The notes beneath the pieces are model-generated. The model was not told the origin of the DNA, ran no database searches, and was given only the letters and a program-made list of their open reading frames with translations. The position numbers and the translations under genes are program-made. Source: Promethearchaeia archaeon (GTDB lineage: Archaea; Asgardarchaeota; Lokiarchaeia; Sigyniarchaeales; SOKP01). From it: a DNA stretch of 45,284 nt. The stretch is taken from positions 1 through 45,284 of the forward strand of contig JAHQWI010000069.1 of assembly GCA_029856085.1 (NCBI GenBank), written 5' to 3'. This document shows positions 12,349-36,577 of this stretch, piece by piece (within the stretch, counting starts at the first letter, position 1; each line of letters opens with the position of its first letter).

Positions 12349-13500
12349 ATGAGTTTAATAAATTTTTTTATTGAAATCCATTTGAAACTTAAGCAATACA
12401 GATTGCAGTTTTTATTTTTCTTCTTATTTTGGTTCGCAGGTTTTCTATTTTTCTTTTTTACAGAACCCGGTGATAGTTTAGGAAAAATATTCTTATATTC
12501 CTTAACGGTACGTTCTCCCATTGGTGCAGATGATTTAGCCAAGTTTTATGTCTTAATATGGCCTATTTTACTGGAAGTGATTTTTTTTGGGTTTATCATG
12601 GGTGAATTGTTGCAAAAGTATAACCCTCTTATTACGAGTAGAATTCTCGCTCGACACCAACGAAATCATATAGTTGTAATAGGTTATCAACATCTTTCTG
12701 AGAGAATAGTAGAATACTGCATTGCAAATAAAGAACGTTTTAGTCTTATAGAGGATCACCATGAATTAGTAGAAGATTTAATTAGTATTGGAAAACCAGT
12801 AGTTGTTGGAGATCCTACTGAAACAACTAACCTAGAATTTGCAAATGTAAAAAGCGCGAAAGAGGTATTTATTACTATAGATGACGTTAGGATAGCGATA
12901 ATTTGTACAGAAAAAGTTCGTAAAATGAATGATGAATGCTCGATATATGTCCGTGCATTTGAAGATCATGTGCAAGAGTATCTTAGACAACCCTCATTAA
13001 ACGCATTTTCATTTTCTACATCAAAATGGGCGATGGATGGCATCCAAGAATGGACGAGGGATAAAACTGGTAATGCGATTGTGATAGGCCGGGATATTTT
13101 AACCCATCGAATTGCTTATAACCTCTCTCTGCAACCAGAGCGCGAAGTTTTTCTTTTTGACGATGAACATGATGGTATTGAATTTGTGGTCAATAAACGA
13201 TTACATATAATCAATGAATTAGCTTATTTTTTAAGTGATCTACGTACCCATGTAAATTTAGATGAAATTACCCAAGCATTTATTTGCTGGAAACGTGAAT
13301 CTGAATTCGATGAATCACTTTATCTAACATCAAAATTAAATTCTCGTTATCCTCATATTGAGGTATTTGTGCGAATTTTTGATGAAGAACTCATTGATTT
13401 GGTAGAAAAATACAATGCAAAAACCTTTTCAACATCTAGCAACGCGTTTAAAATGCTTCAGAAAGAAGTTGCACCTGATTCCGCAATTTGTCCTAAATAA
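12349..13500 (+). CDS. two-TM, double RCK (TrkA-N) channel-like protein with non-standard filter
   Basis: Protein of 383 residues with the plan of a prokaryotic ligand-gated ion channel: TM1 (about 20-38), a pore-like re-entrant segment (42-62), TM2 (66-88) and two cytoplasmic RCK/TrkA-N domains. The first RCK starts HIVVIGYQHLSERI near 107, the second NAIVIGRDILTHRI near 243. The potassium filter TVGYGD is not present; the equivalent position reads TVRSPIGADD. It is therefore probably not a simple K+ channel. It may resemble the CASTOR/POLLUX group, where the filter is also divergent, or be a redox/nucleotide sensor. A second copy of its last 39 codons lies at 17047-17172. Confidence 0.75.
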   Translation: MSLINFFIEIHLKLKQYRLQFLFFFLFWFAGFLFFFFTEPGDSLGKIFLYSLTVRSPIGADDLAKFYVLIWPILLEVIFFGFIMGELLQKYNPLITSRILARHQRNHIVVIGYQHLSERIVEYCIANKERFSLIEDHHELVEDLISIGKPVVVGDPTETTNLEFANVKSAKEVFITIDDVRIAIICTEKVRKMNDECSIYVRAFEDHVQEYLRQPSLNAFSFSTSKWAMDGIQEWTRDKTGNAIVIGRDILTHRIAYNLSLQPEREVFLFDDEHDGIEFVVNKRLHIINELAYFLSDLRTHVNLDEITQAFICWKRESEFDESLYLTSKLNSRYPHIEVFVRIFDEELIDLVEKYNAKTFSTSSNAFKMLQKEVAPDSAICPK

Positions 13501-13597: not shown

Positions 13598-13990
13598 TTA
13601 AATAATGTTTAGGATATGCTCTCTTAACGAGGCTACAAGCTCGATTTTCATTGATACTGGCAAATCTAATTTGCCCTCAAAACTTTCAATAAATTTTTGT
13701 TTAATTTTATTTAAGATGAGGGATATTTGGTCAAATGTGGTCTCATTGCCATATTCGATTATATATTTAAAATTAATTATTGAATCTTTTATAATAAAAT
13801 AATTTTCATTACCAATCTTTATTACTCGACCCTCATCGCTTTCCATTTTTGAAGCAATAGATTGTAAGGAATAAATAAAATGAGATAATAGGGTCTTATT
13901 AATTGCATTTGAACCTTGTTTATGTATCTCTAAAGTGAAAATAGGGGTTTCCTTATTATCTATTACATAAATACTGCTGATATTACTCAT
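13598..13990 (-). CDS. small longin/roadblock-like protein, putative GTPase partner
   Basis: Soluble protein of 130 residues. The first 50 residues follow the pattern of the other longin-like domains in this window: a first strand SIYVIDNKETPIF, then a helix LLSHFIYSLQSIASKM. Longin and roadblock domains are structurally related scaffolds that bind small GTPases (MglB with MglA, Ragulator/Gtr partners with Rag, SRX with SR-alpha). The gene lies 21 nt downstream of the Rag/Arf-like GTPase gene on the same strand, which fits a GTPase-binding or GAP role. Fold is inferred from pattern and context rather than a diagnostic motif. It lacks membrane helices. It is the third gene of a three-gene operon. 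Confidence 0.68.
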   Translation of the reverse strand: MSNISSIYVIDNKETPIFTLEIHKQGSNAINKTLLSHFIYSLQSIASKMESDEGRVIKIGNENYFIIKDSIINFKYIIEYGNETTFDQISLILNKIKQKFIESFEGKLDLPVSMKIELVASLREHILNII

Positions 13991-14011
13991 ATTTACCGTG
14001 ATAGTACTCCT

Positions 14012-14554
14012 TTAATTTGAAAATATTAAATTCTTCTCAAATAATGTATATACGCTGGATCTGTAAATTTTATACTTAAATTTAGCAGGGATTAAATTAA
14101 AAATTTGTTTATTTATCAAAACATTTATTTTTTCGTCAATATCTTTAAATTCAGCTTTATTTTTCAAGTTTGGATCATATTTGTGTAAGAATATAGACAA
14201 TTCAATAATTTTTTCTTCTTGTTCTATAGACTTTATGATATCTTCTAAGTATTTTAACGCTTGATTATATCTATTATAGTCTTGAACATCAATAATATAT
14301 AGAATCTCATCTACTTTTTTTATATACTTAGCAAAATTTGTAATGTGATCTGAGCGGTATTCTTTTTGACCTCCAAAATCCCACGCATATATATTAAAAT
14401 TGTTCTCTTGGAATTGTTCGATGTTTACGCACCTAGTTGGTTTTAAAGATAAATAAGATAATAGATTGGTATCTTCTTTTAAACTCAATAAAATAGTAGT
14501 TTTCCCACAGTTATCCAAGCCTAATATCAGAATTTTGCTATTCTTATCTCCCAA
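14012..14554 (-). CDS. Arf/Rag-like small GTPase
   Basis: Ras-superfamily GTPase of 180 residues. G1 is GLDNCGKT (12-19), G2 probably Thr40, G3 WDFGGQ (58-63) and G4 HKYD (124-127); G5 may be SSVY (166-169). HKxD in place of NKxD and the WDFGGQ box are features of the Rag/Gtr and Arf-related groups, abundant in Asgard archaea. The switch-II Gln63 is kept, so GTP hydrolysis is likely possible. There is no C-terminal Cys for prenylation and no N-terminal Gly-rich amphipathic helix, so membrane attachment would need a partner. No ATG is available; TTG at 14552-14554 follows AAAGG with suitable spacing. The longin-transmembrane protein gene lies 57 nt upstream and a small longin protein gene 21 nt downstream. 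Confidence 0.9.
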   Translation of the reverse strand: MGDKNSKILILGLDNCGKTTILLSLKEDTNLLSYLSLKPTRCVNIEQFQENNFNIYAWDFGGQKEYRSDHITNFAKYIKKVDEILYIIDVQDYNRYNQALKYLEDIIKSIEQEEKIIELSIFLHKYDPNLKNKAEFKDIDEKINVLINKQIFNLIPAKFKYKIYRSSVYTLFEKNLIFSN

Positions 14555-14611
14555 TTTTCAAACCTTTTTAATTTTTATTTATTTCATTAATCGCTTTTGG
14601 AATTTAACCTT

Positions 14612-16867
14612 TTAAATATTATAAAGCTGAAATATATTTTTTTCAATTAAATTAAATATAGCTCTTATCTTACTTGGTTCATACTCATGTTGATTTAACA
14701 AAAAACTCGTAAAAAAATAATCCAGGTAATTTTTCTTCATAAAATCCAATGCTCTATTATATTCATTTTTCTCTGTCGAATTTAATTTTATATTTTTATT
14801 CTCTACAATCCTTAAAGGTGCTAAAAATGAGGTGTTTAAATGCTTTTTTACAATAATTTTTATCCCTTTAAATGGCGTAACATCATTATTAAAATTTGAG
14901 AGGAGATGACCGTATTCTTCATCAATTTCATAAGATAAGTTAGTAATCGATTTTAAAAAATCACTAGAAGGATTCTCTTTCATTATAAGTACCACCCTAA
15001 AATTCTTAAACTCAACCATTAGTATTTTTGAATCTTTATATTCTAATTTAATTGTCTTAGATTGTTGATAAGAGCCTATTAGTTCGAATCCAAATGAACG
15101 TATGGCATCTAAGAATCCAGAAATCAATGCAGAATCGATATTTTTACCTGAAAAATTTTCTTCGTACACACATAGTCCAGATTCCTTATCTACAACCATA
15201 AAATAATTCATGCTAAGCACATCCGTACATTTATCTACTAACTTTTTCCTATTTCGCTGAATTTTATTTCTAACTCTTTTAATCGTTATATATGAACCTG
15301 TACTAACAGTTGAAACTATTCCAATAATTATTACAATTAAAATAATAAACTGAGGGTCTAAAGTAAATGGAACAGTTATTTTGATGTCTTGTGAAATTAC
15401 ACTTGCCTTATGATCGCTATACCAAAAAAATACAACCATATAATCTCCTTTGTGTGGATTTTCTGGAATTTGATAAGAAAAAGTCATTATTATCGAACTA
15501 ACCTCTTTTGTCTCATTAAATAATTCAAAATCCCAAGGGTCAATCAACTTCCAAGAAACATACCCGTTAACTTGAGGTAATTCTATTGAAAACCTTAAAT
15601 CTTGATTAGGTTCAAATTCTATAATAGGAAAGTTCATGTCTAATATTTCTTGAGAAGATAATGCTGTTATCAACCAAGTTGCTCCAGTTATGATACTATC
15701 GCTTTCTAAATAAATATATTTTTCATCTGTATTTATTACAACATTTAATTCTGAATTAACAACCAATCCATTCCTGTATATTTTTATGTCATTCCAATTG
15801 TCGGGATAATAGAATTCAATTGAGTAATTACCCTCTATTCTACTTATTAAGGGTTCAATTCTCCACCTAATTTCTTGATCTAATTCTAAAATCACAGAGC
15901 CATCTGCATCAAATTTATTTTTTATCCTTAAAGAATAGCTATAACTAAAATTAAGTGTTGTTGAAGTATTGCTTTTAATTGGAATTTGTAGAGGATTCGT
16001 ATCAGGTGAATAGTTTAATTTGGGTATTTTAACATAACCAGTTCCATTATTAATACCATTCAAGATGTTGTAATACGTATTTTCGATTTCTATTGTCATA
16101 TTTATTTCTTGGGGATTATATATTCGTTCAGTGCTTTGGACTAATTTGTATAATAGAGTGGAATTCTTTACTCCATCGCTCCACGTATTCCCATCATATC
16201 TTGAGACGTGTAGATTTGGAAATTGAGCATAAGCATTATATGCCCAATAGTATTTATCTTGTGCTGCAAATATAATTGAACCATCAACCACTAAGAAATA
16301 TTTTCCAATTGAAAGATTAATTGGATTTTCAAATTTTTGATAAAACCATCCCAAATTCTTAGTTATATTAAGGTCGGTTGGAGTACCATAAACTGTATCA
16401 TTAGGAGCATTTTTCACGGGATCGTATCCATTGATTTGAACTTTTAATACTTTATCAGTGTATTCATTTTTAAAACCATAAATATAAGTACCATAAACAA
16501 TTGAAGGTTCAGAGATATTGATTTGAACACCGTATCCATAATTATTACCAAATTTTTCAATTACTTTAAAACCACTATCATATACCTCAAATTCTTTTGT
16601 CTCTTTTCCTAATTTTATATCAGTAAAATTTAGTTCAAATTTCGTAACATTCCATGTGTCTGAAGGTAATGCAATTCCAATTGATTGGGTATTATTTACT
16701 TGATCAATTTTGTCCGCATATTCATACATCGGATATTTTAAGTCTGTTATTTCTAACTGTTCATTCTCCTGAGCATAAACTCTATTTCCAGTGTAATATG
16801 CGGTAACCAGTATGAATAAAGCGATCAATAAAAAAAATGTGGATTTTTTAAACATCTTCATAGGCAT
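14612..16867 (-). CDS. single-pass surface protein with cytoplasmic longin-like domain
   Basis: Protein of 751 residues that joins an outside and an inside domain. Residues 7-25 form a signal segment, with likely cleavage near YAQ (31-33). Residues about 35-500 are beta-rich, Asn- and Tyr-rich and full of sequons, so extracellular. One membrane helix spans about 505-528, followed by a basic stretch (KKRVRNKIQRNRKK-like). Residues 550-690 are a longin-like domain: FMVVDKESGLCVYEENF, then ALISGFLDAIRSFGFEL. This aligns by eye with the longin-like N-terminus at 35732 (WIVESDSGIKLLYKSF, DIVSGFLTAFNHF). A helical C-terminus follows (691-751). First gene of an operon with a Rag-like GTPase and a small longin protein. 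I infer a receptor or membrane anchor for the GTPase. Confidence 0.8.
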   Translation of the reverse strand: MPMKMFKKSTFFLLIALFILVTAYYTGNRVYAQENEQLEITDLKYPMYEYADKIDQVNNTQSIGIALPSDTWNVTKFELNFTDIKLGKETKEFEVYDSGFKVIEKFGNNYGYGVQINISEPSIVYGTYIYGFKNEYTDKVLKVQINGYDPVKNAPNDTVYGTPTDLNITKNLGWFYQKFENPINLSIGKYFLVVDGSIIFAAQDKYYWAYNAYAQFPNLHVSRYDGNTWSDGVKNSTLLYKLVQSTERIYNPQEINMTIEIENTYYNILNGINNGTGYVKIPKLNYSPDTNPLQIPIKSNTSTTLNFSYSYSLRIKNKFDADGSVILELDQEIRWRIEPLISRIEGNYSIEFYYPDNWNDIKIYRNGLVVNSELNVVINTDEKYIYLESDSIITGATWLITALSSQEILDMNFPIIEFEPNQDLRFSIELPQVNGYVSWKLIDPWDFELFNETKEVSSIIMTFSYQIPENPHKGDYMVVFFWYSDHKASVISQDIKITVPFTLDPQFIILIVIIIGIVSTVSTGSYITIKRVRNKIQRNRKKLVDKCTDVLSMNYFMVVDKESGLCVYEENFSGKNIDSALISGFLDAIRSFGFELIGSYQQSKTIKLEYKDSKILMVEFKNFRVVLIMKENPSSDFLKSITNLSYEIDEEYGHLLSNFNNDVTPFKGIKIIVKKHLNTSFLAPLRIVENKNIKLNSTEKNEYNRALDFMKKNYLDYFFTSFLLNQHEYEPSKIRAIFNLIEKNIFQLYNI

Positions 16868-17172: not shown

Positions 17173-17218
17173 AGTTTTATATCAATGAATATTTTTGTAT
17201 CAAAGGTGGATTGAAAAA

Positions 17219-17761
17219 ATGACAGATGAGATCATAAAGATAGTATATTTGCCTCCTATGCGAGTTGCATCATTTCATGCTATGGGAAAAAATTTTGGAG
17301 ATCCTGAGGTAAAGGTTTGGAAAAAGCTTAAAGATTGGGCAAAAACTAAAGGGTTACTAGATAATCCCTCAAAACATCAAATTTTTGGTTTCAATAATCC
17401 TGCACCTCTTCACATTAACGAAGGAAAACCATATGGATATGAATTATGGATAACAATAGGGAAAGATTTCAAAGTCGAAGATCATATAAGAACTAAATCT
17501 GTTGAGGGAGGCATGTACGCCGTAATTACATGCAAAATGGAAGAAGAAAATATTGGTACTACATGGCAAAAACTCTTTCAATGGATTCAAGAAAATGAAG
17601 GTTATGACTACCATCCAAATTGGAAGCCACTCCATGAACGTTATGATGAGGATCATGTTAATCATGGTGTATTTGGATTAGAATATATTCCAGATGCACC
17701 CTTAACTAATAAAGAGGAATTCTTTATAATGGATATCTATGGTCCAGTAATTAAAAAATAA
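17219..17761 (+). CDS. GyrI-like / AraC effector-binding domain protein
   Basis: Soluble protein of about 180 residues of the GyrI-like small-molecule binding group (SOUL/GyrI fold). Typical parts are the first strand IVYLPPMRVASFHAMG, GYELWITIGKDF in the centre, VEGGMYAVITCK and a C-terminal FFIMDIYGPVI strand. In AraC-like regulators this fold binds effectors; stand-alone members hydrolyse or sequester ligands in some species. The longest frame starts at TTG 17195, but AAAGGTGG at 17203-17210 sits about 8 nt before ATG 17219, giving MTDEIIK, which I choose. There is no DNA-binding domain. It is convergent with the polyproline protein; effector unknown. Confidence 0.8.
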   Translation: MTDEIIKIVYLPPMRVASFHAMGKNFGDPEVKVWKKLKDWAKTKGLLDNPSKHQIFGFNNPAPLHINEGKPYGYELWITIGKDFKVEDHIRTKSVEGGMYAVITCKMEEENIGTTWQKLFQWIQENEGYDYHPNWKPLHERYDEDHVNHGVFGLEYIPDAPLTNKEEFFIMDIYGPVIKK

Positions 17762-18595: not shown

Positions 18596-20100
18596 TTAAA
18601 TTTCGTTGAGTCCATCCCAAGGTTCTCTCTCTTTGTCGAAAGGAGCATTTACAACTTTGCATTCTCTTCCTAGGAACATTGTTGCTCGACTTTCCTTATC
18701 ATATGAAGACCATTCAGGAAGTCCATCGTGATTTGGATTTCCAGTATGAGCAAAAGAAATCCATGCATCCATCACTTTTTCACAAAGATTATCAATATCA
18801 GGACCTTTCCCGACGAATTCGGGAAAACCAGGGGCGTCAAATGTGTTAAATACAAATGGTACATCTATAAAGTGGGGGCACCCATAAGCACCATTGAATT
18901 TGGGAGATGGAAAGGTAAACATGTAATTAAACGTATTAGGTTGATGTTTAGATTGAGCCTCAAGCAATCGTATCGTGGGGACACGGAACATGGCACCAGT
19001 TACAACAGCATCCAATAAATCCATTGGTTCTATGGAAAACTTTCCTTTCCTTGCATTTTTATAAATGTCTATAATTTCTCTGCTTGTATTATTGTCTATT
19101 CCACTTGTACCCAACACAGCGATTATCGCATTTTCACCCCCTGATTTAACCATTGCATTGAATCCGGGATCCTGATAAGTAAACAATTTTACTTCATCTA
19201 AATTGGTCCCTATCATAAAATCAATGTTTTCTAATTCCCCATCTCGGAATGCTTTCAAGGGATGTTTAGGGATTGTATCGCCATCAATTATTGGTCTAAA
19301 AGCAAGGAGATTATTTAGATCTGATCCAATATATTCATTCTGTGCTTCAATAATCCTTTCAGGAGACGCTTTACGCAATGATTCTATATCCCCCTTTTTT
19401 ATTTTTAACTTTCGCATAAAGCCCTTAGTACTTCTCTCGCTTACCTCTGGGTCAATAGAAGGAGCACTTTGAGCAATTAAACGTCTAATAAGTCCTTTGG
19501 CTTGTGGCATAACTGGTAACGTTACCACAGAATATCCTCCAGCCGATTCGCCAAATATTGTGATATTGTCAGGATCTCCACCAAACGCTTCAATATTATC
19601 GTGCACCCAATTAAGCGCTAGAACTTGATCAAGTATTCCAGCATTTATAGTAATATCTGAAATGGTTAAAAACCTAATGCCCCTAACCTATAGTTAATGG
19701 TAACTACTACAACATTTCCTCGTTTAGCTAAAGCTAAGCCATCATAAAATTCATATGCACTGCCTCCCGAAATAAATGCCCCACCATGTATCCAAAACAT
19801 AACTGGACGTTTCTCATCATCTGCTGCGGGTGTCCATATGTTAAGAGTCAAGCAATCTTCACTTTCTGGCCCTAGCTTACCAAACATTTCTTCAAATATT
19901 ATATATCCTTGAAATGCACATGGACCGTATTTGGTTGCATCAAGTACTCCATCCCAAGGTTCTTTCACAACAGGTGGACGAAATCTTAAATCACCAATTG
20001 GAGGTTCAGCATAAGGGATTCCTTTATATACTTCTATGCCCTTTTCGCTATAACCCTTTATTTTTCCAGATTTTGTTTCAATTATTGCCATTACTTCCAT
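18596..20100 (-). pseudogene. type-B carboxylesterase, frameshifted in a homopolymer
   Basis: Alpha/beta hydrolase of the carboxylesterase/para-nitrobenzyl esterase family, about 501 codons if repaired. The N-terminal piece has YKGIPYAEPPIG, the oxyanion loop WIHGGAF and INYRLGALGF. The C-terminal piece has the nucleophile GESAGG and GCPHFIDVPFVF with the catalytic His. The two are in different frames. At 19668-19672 (plus-strand A5, coding-strand T5) one more T would restore FLTISDITINAGILDQVLALNWVHDN, which matches the intact paralogue at 22449. This is either a homopolymer sequencing error or a one-base deletion. It is separated by a DUF1326 gene from the divergent MFS gene. Substrate unknown. 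Confidence 0.85.
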
Positions 20101-35731: not shown

Positions 35732-36577
35732 ATGATTATTTGGATTGTAGAAAGCGATTCTGGTATAAAATTGTTATATAAGTCTTTTTTAAAAACAGAC
35801 GCAGACGAAGATATAGTTTCTGGTTTTTTAACGGCGTTTAACCACTTTTCTATGATGGAATTTAAACAATCTATTGACTCTATAGAAATGGGAGGCCTTA
35901 GATGGAGTTACATTGTAGAACCAAAATACAATCTACTTTTTGTCGCAGCTGGTACTAAAGAGATGAAGACAGAAATTCTAAAAACTAGATTAAATGTTAT
36001 AAAGAATGCCTTTATCAAAGAGTTCGATCCAGTTTGGGAAAAAAAAGGACATAATTGGGATGGCGATATTAATATTTTTTTACCATTTCTAAAATTAATA
36101 GAGGATTATTATAATCAATGGCAGGAGGTTGAAACTTTAACACAAACGGCAGATTTCTTTGATATTTTGGGAATATTCCAGAACATTTTTATTATGTTAA
36201 GAAATATTATTGAAAAGAAGATGTATACTAAATCAAAAAATGAGATATTAGTCCAAATAAATTTAGTTTACGAATCCTATCAAGATCAAGATGCCTGTAA
36301 AAATGAACCAGAATTGAAAAATATCTCCTTTTCAAAAGAATCTTGGTTCGATATTATCGATATTAATTTGATTAAATGTGATAAAGAATTAGTTATCAAC
36401 AGTTTAAAATACTTTCTGACCCAAGTAGTTAAAGTGATAAAAGAGGTAAAAGGGGATAATTTATGCCTAAAATATTTTCGAGAAGAAAAAGTATATCGCT
36501 ATATTTTTAATAATATGGTATTATTAAAAGATTTATATCTAGATATGTACTTGCTAGAACTATTTCTATTACTATAA
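35732..36577 (+). CDS. longin-like domain protein with helical C-terminus
   Basis: Soluble protein of 281 residues. Residues 1-120 look like a longin domain: strand IIWIVESDSGIKLLYKSF, helix DIVSGFLTAFNHFSMMEF, then strands GLRWSYIVEPKYNLLFVAAG and a helix. The first half aligns by eye with the cytoplasmic domain of the transmembrane protein at 14612 (ES.SG..., then SGFL.A...F). Residues 121-281 are helical with several Cys and no known motif. Longin domains bind small GTPases or SNAREs; no GTPase gene is adjacent here. A candidate structured RNA follows about 75 nt after its stop. Confidence 0.62.
   Translation: MIIWIVESDSGIKLLYKSFLKTDADEDIVSGFLTAFNHFSMMEFKQSIDSIEMGGLRWSYIVEPKYNLLFVAAGTKEMKTEILKTRLNVIKNAFIKEFDPVWEKKGHNWDGDINIFLPFLKLIEDYYNQWQEVETLTQTADFFDILGIFQNIFIMLRNIIEKKMYTKSKNEILVQINLVYESYQDQDACKNEPELKNISFSKESWFDIIDINLIKCDKELVINSLKYFLTQVVKVIKEVKGDNLCLKYFREEKVYRYIFNNMVLLKDLYLDMYLLELFLLL

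Follow-up and report, generated by a model that had tools for sequence, protein, structure and literature searches.

Could a protein at the surface of an archaeal cell work directly on a small GTPase? This question is raised by three adjacent minus-strand genes (positions 13598-16867) in a 45,284-nucleotide (nt) stretch of Lokiarchaeal DNA, hereafter the window (contig JAHQWI010000069.1 of a 3.26 Mb draft genome, assembly GCA_029856085.1), which encode a transmembrane longin protein, an Arf/Rag-like GTPase and a free longin. Lokiarchaea are relatives of the archaeal ancestor of eukaryotes, and the longin is a fold of membrane traffic. The first Lokiarchaeum genome is reported to encode 109 small GTPases and 41 longins (PMC4917890). 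The partners of these proteins are largely unknown, and whether operons would reveal the targets of the GTPases is a question posed by Dey et al.; according to the Discussion of a 2024 paper, the pairing of GTPases with GTPase-activating proteins (GAPs) or guanine nucleotide exchange factors (GEFs) by genome layout is difficult. The present operon picks out three proteins, each soluble or excisable, as a matched set, and the side-by-side position of a surface longin, a GTPase and a free longin suggests, though it does not prove, a receptor that works directly on a small GTPase.

The three genes and their products

In the order of transcription, the locus consists of open reading frames (ORFs) for a 751-amino-acid (aa) single-pass surface protein (14612..16867), a 180-aa small GTPase of the HKYD type (14012..14554) and a 130-aa free longin (13598..13990), all, like the features within them, on the minus strand and separated by 57 and 21 nt, just as the first-pass annotation of the window had described. 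The GTPase ORF starts with TTG, with in-frame stops shortly upstream. The closest flanking genes (12349-13500 and 17195-17761) both lie on the opposite strand, the ORF list shows no fourth gene that continues the trio on its strand, and this layout would allow the trio to form a single transcription unit.

The surface protein begins with a hydrophobic, signal-peptide-like segment (approximately residues 1-32, 16772..16867) ending in VYA/QE, with the cleavage site placed by eye. It is followed by an ectodomain predicted to be all-beta (residues 38-500, 15368..16756) and by a membrane helix, recognized by hydropathy and charge (approximately residues 508-529, 15281..15346), after which comes a positive stretch. 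In the AlphaFold2 (AF2) model (49-sequence alignment; mean predicted local distance difference test score, pLDDT, 85.2; predicted template modelling score, pTM, 0.52), residues 38-500 form strands and a long helix then crosses the membrane. The division into an outside domain, one membrane helix and an inside domain, which the first-pass annotation had proposed, holds across the family: in 60 of the 66 receptor rows, those 700-900 aa long, N-glycosylation sequons outside the membrane number 1096 versus 464 expected from shuffles, those on the cytoplasmic side are not enriched (96 observed, 97 expected), and the charge bias is positive-inside in every case.

On the cytoplasmic side, the model places strands at 553-560, 566-571, 604-610, 613-620 and 623-629 and helices at 579-591, 635-657 and 664-677. 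This order (b-b-a-b-b-b-a-a) points to a longin topology at residues 553-677 (14837..15211), so that the check set beforehand, a predicted longin fold at 550-690, came out in favour of the original suggestion. So did the proposed resemblance to the soluble longin encoded at 35732 of the window, the family of which is matched by the receptor cytoplasmic part with hhalign probability 97.2 (E 4.7e-11); direct comparison with the 130-aa longin gives probability 50.6 (E 1.6e-4). The AP-2 sigma chain 6owo_S is the sole longin among the 50 Foldseek matches listed for the full receptor model. The C-terminal tail (residues 690-751, 14615..14800), modelled as helices 697-712 and 731-742 with a short strand, is perhaps, to judge by eye, a degenerate winged helix.

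No Pfam family matched the window receptor, ectodomain and longin part included, and 49 members of the receptor family gave only scattered weak ectodomain matches, with neither HATPase nor HisKA among the matches up to E 0.1. The Foldseek matches listed for the ectodomain are weak as well and include a phage baseplate protein, complement C3 and immunoglobulin domains of Siglec and PECAM; PDB profile matches of the ectodomain (PCNA at E 0.0024 and above) were judged to be chance. The family is nearly universal in the genomes searched, with matches in 57 of 58, the genome of the window included. Its cytoplasmic part recurs under other, often giant outer parts, with open frames of up to approximately 2,450 aa in relatives, and in the window genome matches to it lie on contigs G000:C160, C18, C178 and C175. 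Full-length transmembrane longins also stand in tandem, in two or three copies, without the GTPase or the small longin (L038 1953-6628, L153 1138-8271, L151 1143-8268).

The third gene had been annotated as longin/roadblock-like, and the models favour the first of these names. The AF2 model (pLDDT 77.7, nine-sequence alignment) has longin topology from end to end, with strands at 4-10, 16-21, 54-59, 62-69 and 74-80 and helices at 32-47, 86-104 and 112-129. Longins, as described by Tran et al. (2024, PMC10933270), are without the N-terminal helix of roadblock proteins and have a second C-terminal helix; the modelled helix layout agrees with this description and suggests a longin rather than a roadblock protein. 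In Foldseek, TRAPPII longin subunits come first (8.9e-6), followed by VAMP7 (8.2e-5), Tca17, Ykt6 (1.6e-4), zeta-COP and AP-2 sigma, and a Ragulator chain ranks ninth, with MglB chains from rank 20. The soluble longin family of 35732 is matched with hhalign probability 95.8 (E 7.5e-9). At the cut-offs of the curated longin families there is no match for either protein (Sybindin 15.9 bits versus 25 for the small protein, none for the big one), probably because both longins are too divergent for these models.

The GTPase carries the G1 motif GLDNCGKT (14498..14521), WDFGGQ and the Rag-like G4 motif HKYD (HKxD; 14174..14185), and its Pfam matches are to Arf (87 bits versus a cut-off of 22.3, E 1.4e-24), Gtr1_RagA (67.9 bits versus 22, E 1.1e-18, positions 1-169 of 232) and SRPRB (7.6e-11); in a PDB sequence search, 8yl2 and 8zla are best and Arl3 is next. 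Rag/Gtr GTPases have HKxD in G4 and work as a pair of two GTPases, and Arf family members have an N-terminal amphipathic helix with a myristoylated Gly2. So is this protein a Rag, as the first-pass annotation called it? HKxD, which all 43 rows of the GTPase tree share, the window protein among them, and the Gtr1_RagA match speak for the name, but the six complete operon GTPases (180-185 aa) end after the G domain and are devoid of the Rag C-terminal roadblock domain, so that the name overstates the case. Within the trios there is no second GTPase gene that would make up a Rag-type pair; a partner might be encoded elsewhere. The Arf-type anchor is not recognizable either, the N-terminus being short and Gly2 being found in one of the six proteins, that of the window, and the ten C-terminal residues are without cysteine in all six, in agreement with the original remark that the GTPase has no anchor site of its own. 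Taken together, the G-domain-only length, the lack of a C-terminal cysteine and the unshared Gly2 mark it as a single-domain GTPase of Arf/Rag-like type rather than a Rag.

In the 43-row tree, the window GTPase and 18 others form a supported set (100/98), and 23 longer fused relatives stand apart (94/85, under the support mark of the tool); the fused domains were taken at E <1e-30, with L190 treated apart and two weaker ones dropped. The idea that the GTPase and the small longin represent a Rag cut in two was considered and is unsupported by sequence: for the terminal parts of 26 GTPase relatives drawn from 20 loci (16 N-terminal parts, 15 and 9 C-terminal ones), hidden Markov model searches at E 10 found no match to the small or the receptor longin, and hhalign probabilities against both longins were at most 2.1. 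An apparent longin-GTPase fusion (L162 2463-3359) matches a GTPase profile at 3.5e-12 and a longin profile at 6.8e-11.

Recurrence of the gene order

Is the same order found elsewhere among Asgard archaea, as the first-pass annotation proposed to check? Complete trios are present in the window and in Loki_b32 (L138), Hel_238_bin13 (L139), YT6_002 (L167), LW60_4 (L177) and TEKIR_6S (L184), and in AMARA_1S (G022) the trio is divided between two contigs, the ends of which (L169 and L120) we take to join, which brings the total to seven Lokiarchaeal genomes of at least three genera. The order is thus conserved, albeit in a minority of genomes: in a 195-genome sample of the phylum, the window's family is represented by 46 genomes, 5 of which have the trio, and the GTPase model at E 1e-30 finds matches in 51 genomes of the sample, all within the window's class. 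Across genera, identity to the window proteins falls to 47% for the GTPase (LW60_4), 30-31% for the small protein and 35-37% for the big one. Several flanking genes are common to trio loci within the window genus, and the flanks of L055 (LW60_4) and L118 (YT6_002) contain only weak paralogues (24-32% identity) of those in that genus and have nothing in common with the window itself; this comparison left out L169, and L184 contributed no flanking genes. The ratios of nonsynonymous to synonymous substitution rates between the window and two near orthologues are 0.35-0.37 for the big protein, 0.21-0.22 for the GTPase and 0.18-0.26 for the small protein. The trio is a real, recurrent and uncommon gene set of the kind that combines a membrane sensor, a roadblock or longin protein and a GTPase.

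Among 49 loci obtained by a scan of genome contigs, the receptor is followed by a window-type GTPase in 6; the small longin is present in 5 of these, and the remaining one runs off its contig. In a near orthologue (G004/CP070831.1) the receptor gene ends at an assembly gap of 100 N, and we therefore do not count the missing GTPase and small longin there as a loss. The receptor at L175 (4198-8836), compared with L044/L045 of the same genus, with which it shares neighbours (a 4Fe-4S gene and others), is a different receptor (37% identical), accompanied by a small longin of its own and by a Ras-like GTPase gene in convergent orientation.

Linkage of receptors to GTPases

The connection between receptors and GTPases extends beyond the trio. 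With GTPase-only profiles, 13 of the 46 immediate same-strand neighbours of receptors at the 49 loci are small-GTPase-like, versus 9 of 333 other ORFs of at least 100 aa (Fisher p 5e-8), a count of related loci and not of independent events. The 13 neighbours fall in several receptor lineages and at least three GTPase subfamilies, and the P-loop is visible in 10 of them as read. An earlier count (120 proteins, both strands; 13 of 89 adjacent versus 12 of 290, p 0.002) was discarded because longin-GTPase fusions had drawn longins and receptors into the set. An Arf/Rag-like GTPase lies downstream of the receptor in six loci, and in four others (L152, L158, L162, L178) an Arf/Ras-like GTPase of the GPAxSGKT type lies directly upstream, preceded by a Rab-like GTPase in three, which constitutes a second receptor-GTPase arrangement. 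Ras-like proteins are encoded upstream of the receptor in L179 and L186; lacking a P-loop, these ORFs may be broken or mis-started. In L181 the neighbour is a 314-aa Ras-matching protein, also without a P-loop.

The GTPase subfamily itself keeps a characteristic company. Among 56 unfused members (the phylum-sample matches and G001, with the partial G020:C36, G021:C3 and G022:C9 uncounted), same-strand neighbours match an ArsR-type helix-turn-helix (HTH) profile in 35 cases, a MASE3-histidine-kinase profile in 25 and a longin or transmembrane longin in 15, with none of these in 5; one further subfamily GTPase adjoins a kinase at a contig end without an HTH gene. Pfam confirmed HTH_5 in two examples and MASE3-HisKA-HATPase in two. 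Compact sets of ArsR-type HTH, GTPase and MASE3 histidine kinase (L132 6038-9278, L133, L135, L207, L208 and others) recall conservons and appear to be a signalling system in their own right, and at L190 (2334-3218) a 294-aa protein fuses an ArsR-type HTH (HTH_5) to an Arf/Rag-like GTPase. At receptor-less loci the subfamily GTPase stands beside soluble longins, either one or two (L121-L126, L231, L241), with the order longin-GTPase-longin in L123. A second soluble longin is found within approximately 3 kb at four of seven loci (L121, L122, L123 and L125 among L121-L126 and L134), on the opposite strand in L121 and three ORFs away in L122. We read the basic unit as one GTPase with two longins, one of which can be replaced by a transmembrane longin. 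A soluble longin at L043 (5752-6477) has a C-terminal match to the HTH_47 winged helix (22.0 bits, below the cut-off of 27.1) and is perhaps a longin tied to DNA binding.

Proposed mechanism and alternatives

How could these three proteins work together? Starting from the observed genes, predicted folds, topology, recurrent gene order and recurrent GTPase linkage, we infer a complex, an external ligand, a direction of regulation and an exchange activity, as follows. The single-pass 751-aa protein would meet something outside the cell with its sequon-rich beta ectodomain; its cytoplasmic longin would pair with the free 130-aa longin into a hetero-longin platform; this platform would bind the Arf/Rag-like GTPase and thereby keep a protein that is devoid of a lipid-anchor site at the membrane; and the platform would alter the nucleotide state of the GTPase, most likely by exchange, in the GEF-like manner of MON1-CCZ1 and TRAPP. 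We give about an even chance to this receptor/GTPase signalling module, in which the longin platform anchors and switches the GTPase, exchange being the likeliest mode. The longin heterodimer of MON1 and CCZ1 is reported to suffice for binding of Ypt7, through a surface to which each of the two longins contributes its helix a1; the same holds for TRAPP (PMC5216073). A receptor longin, a free longin and an anchorless GTPase would, by analogy, fit this arrangement. Among the helices of the receptor longin, a1 shows the strongest conservation (3.32 bits, versus 2.45 for a2 and 2.60 for a3), which lends weak support to a joint GTPase-binding surface. That the action is exchange is a judgement from analogy; hydrolysis or plain docking could take its place. 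The original notion of a surface receptor that may directly control a small GTPase is supported in part, being favoured by the recurrent linkage of receptors to several GTPase subfamilies and of the GTPase subfamily to membrane sensors.

The best surviving alternative, which we consider unlikely, is that the GTPase is loaded elsewhere and its GTP form docks on the receptor longin, in the manner of SR-beta on SRX or of Arf1 on adaptor longins, whereby the surface protein would be placed or clustered, for example in protrusions or budding vesicles. The Arf-like core of the GTPase with its SRPRB match (7.6e-11), the AP-2 sigma, zeta-COP and AP-3/Arf1 longins among the Foldseek matches listed, and the reported binding of Arf-like SR-beta by the longin-fold SRX domain of SR-alpha (PMC4686813) all agree with this scenario; however, no coat or adaptor gene was recognized beside the trio among neighbours viewed as ORFs and in a few Pfam scans, and the linkage of the GTPase subfamily to histidine-kinase and HTH genes points to signalling. 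It is improbable that the receptors are an adhesin or S-layer-anchoring family in which the longin is a structural foot and the GTPase and the free longin are mere co-expression neighbours in a few lineages. The family is indeed large, with tandem duplications, and most of its members lack the GTPase and small-longin genes; an S-layer protein is among the generic beta-sandwich matches of the ectodomain, but the trio stays intact across genera in which its proteins have diverged and its flanking genes differ, receptor genes are repeatedly linked to GTPases, and the longin domain is more conserved than the ectodomain (2.88 versus 2.26 bits). About equally improbable is a GAP-like module, in which the longin platform would stimulate GTP hydrolysis as MglB, reported to be the GAP of MglA (PMC9481161), does, and an external cue would switch the GTPase off: MglB chains are among the Foldseek matches of the small protein, but this protein ranks closer to longin than to roadblock chains, and in Pfam the GTPase matches Arf and Gtr1_RagA best.

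Several observations weigh against the switching platform that we favour. The conservation of a1 is unspecific because strands b3-b5 of the receptor longin are equally conserved, and the small longin shows roughly equal conservation of b1, b2 and a1; query template modelling scores do not exceed 0.18 in the 50 Foldseek matches listed for the receptor model. Most receptor homologues stand without either partner gene, including two tandem paralogues in the window genome (L038), and the receptors of trios in other genera are no more similar to that of the window (35-37% identity) than are these partner-less paralogues (39-40%). At L175, L179, L186 and, from another search, L128, the receptor and the small longin occur without a window-type GTPase; a Ras-like GTPase is nearby in three of these four loci, but no P-loop was read in the nearby GTPase of L179 or in the adjacent one of L186. 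Finally, the trio GTPases fall in two groups, and none of 200 bootstrap trees unites them in one clade.

The trees do not unite the trios, and therefore a single origin is not shown. In the tree of 66 receptors (rows with X or of at least 1000 aa left out), the trio and small-longin-only copies lie outside three partner-less clades (51 rows), and two changes are enough to account for the presence or absence of partners, given a midpoint root and long branches. The trio may go back to a single old operon that was later lost in places, or it may have been assembled repeatedly; either history would point to a shared function.

Under a broader version of the receptor hypothesis, transmembrane longins would form a major receptor class at the lokiarchaeal cell surface, with small GTPases as their signalling route. 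Each ectodomain would act on a longin that, with a partner longin, provides a cognate GTPase with its exchange platform; the subfamily of this GTPase (Arf/Rag-like or Ras/Rab-like) would have been swapped between receptor lineages, and the receptor longin would have taken the place of one of two soluble longins. We hold this generalization to be possible, though rather doubtful.

Comparison with known systems

Ragulator-Rag, to which the first-pass annotation likened the trio, holds an HKxD GTPase at the membrane by roadblock/longin-superfamily proteins, as the trio might; however, the trio has no Rag C-terminal domain, no Rag pair and nothing like the membrane-anchored p18 scaffold with its roadblock heterodimers, its topology is that of longins instead of roadblock proteins, and its scaffold is transmembrane and reaches outside, so that the likeness in the strict sense fails. 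MON1-CCZ1 and TRAPP, which are Rab GEFs, share with the trio the combination of two longins with one small GTPase, but they are without a receptor ectodomain, and the partner in the trio is Arf/Rag-like, with exchange a conjecture from analogy. A longin beside a relative of the trio GTPase (L125 2733-3044) scores 25.9 bits with Fuz_longin_1 (FUZ, MON1, HPS1), versus a cut-off of 26.1. In the receptor of the signal recognition particle (SRP), the GTPase SR-beta carries the membrane anchor and the longin protein is soluble; the trio is reversed in this respect, and has a second longin and a large ectodomain besides. What the two systems would share is a longin bound to an Arf-like GTPase at the membrane, as reported for the SRP receptor (PMC4686813) and presumed for the trio. 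By analogy, MON1-CCZ1/TRAPP and the SRP receptor appear to be nearer mechanistic models than Ragulator-Rag.

The closest published design, and the closest in prokaryotes, is the actinobacterial conservon, although the parts differ at each place. Conservons (CvnA-D) are described as G protein systems of a sensor kinase, an MglB-type roadblock protein, CvnC and a Ras-like GTPase, with 13 copies in Streptomyces coelicolor (PMC13343842, PMC4316618). As in the trio, an operon joins a membrane sensor, a small protein of roadblock (longin-related) fold and a small GTPase; CvnA is histidine-kinase-like, CvnB is an MglB-type roadblock protein, CvnC is present and Cvn9 is classed as an MglA system, whereas the trio has a kinase-less receptor, a cytoplasmic longin, an Arf/Rag-like GTPase and no fourth gene. 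Longin-GTPase and roadblock-GTPase fusions are reported in the lokiarchaeal MK-D1, where GTPase genes are stated not to be generally in operons with longin or roadblock genes (Tran et al. 2024, PMC10933270); these fusions hold the same domain repertoire in one chain, in contrast to the separate genes and the transmembrane receptor of the trio. The archaeal vesiculating operon arvABC likewise combines a small GTPase with two conserved operon partners, but there the partners belong to DUF2073 and, with a zinc ribbon, to DUF2072, and the words longin, roadblock and transmembrane are absent from that text (PMC10927574). Within titles and abstract openings, a scope outside which subscription papers largely fall, we met neither a transmembrane longin with an ectodomain nor such an operon. 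The earlier remark that no such system was known is qualified by the conservons, which realize a comparable design with different components.

Neighbouring genes

The gene at 12349-13500 (plus strand), convergent with the operon, encodes a TrkA-N protein with two membrane helices, and it adjoins the operon in both sister genomes too (73-75% identical). At 18596-20100 (minus strand), a carboxylesterase-like gene, named by eye, appears to be broken or misassembled because it is split over two ORFs (19666-20100 and 18596-19606).

Implications

If the receptor hypothesis is true, surface sensing in a cell without internal compartments could have been the starting point from which eukaryotes came to control small GTPases by longin platforms on membranes. 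Should transmembrane longins indeed constitute a class of surface receptors, direct coupling of receptors to small GTPases would predate eukaryotes.

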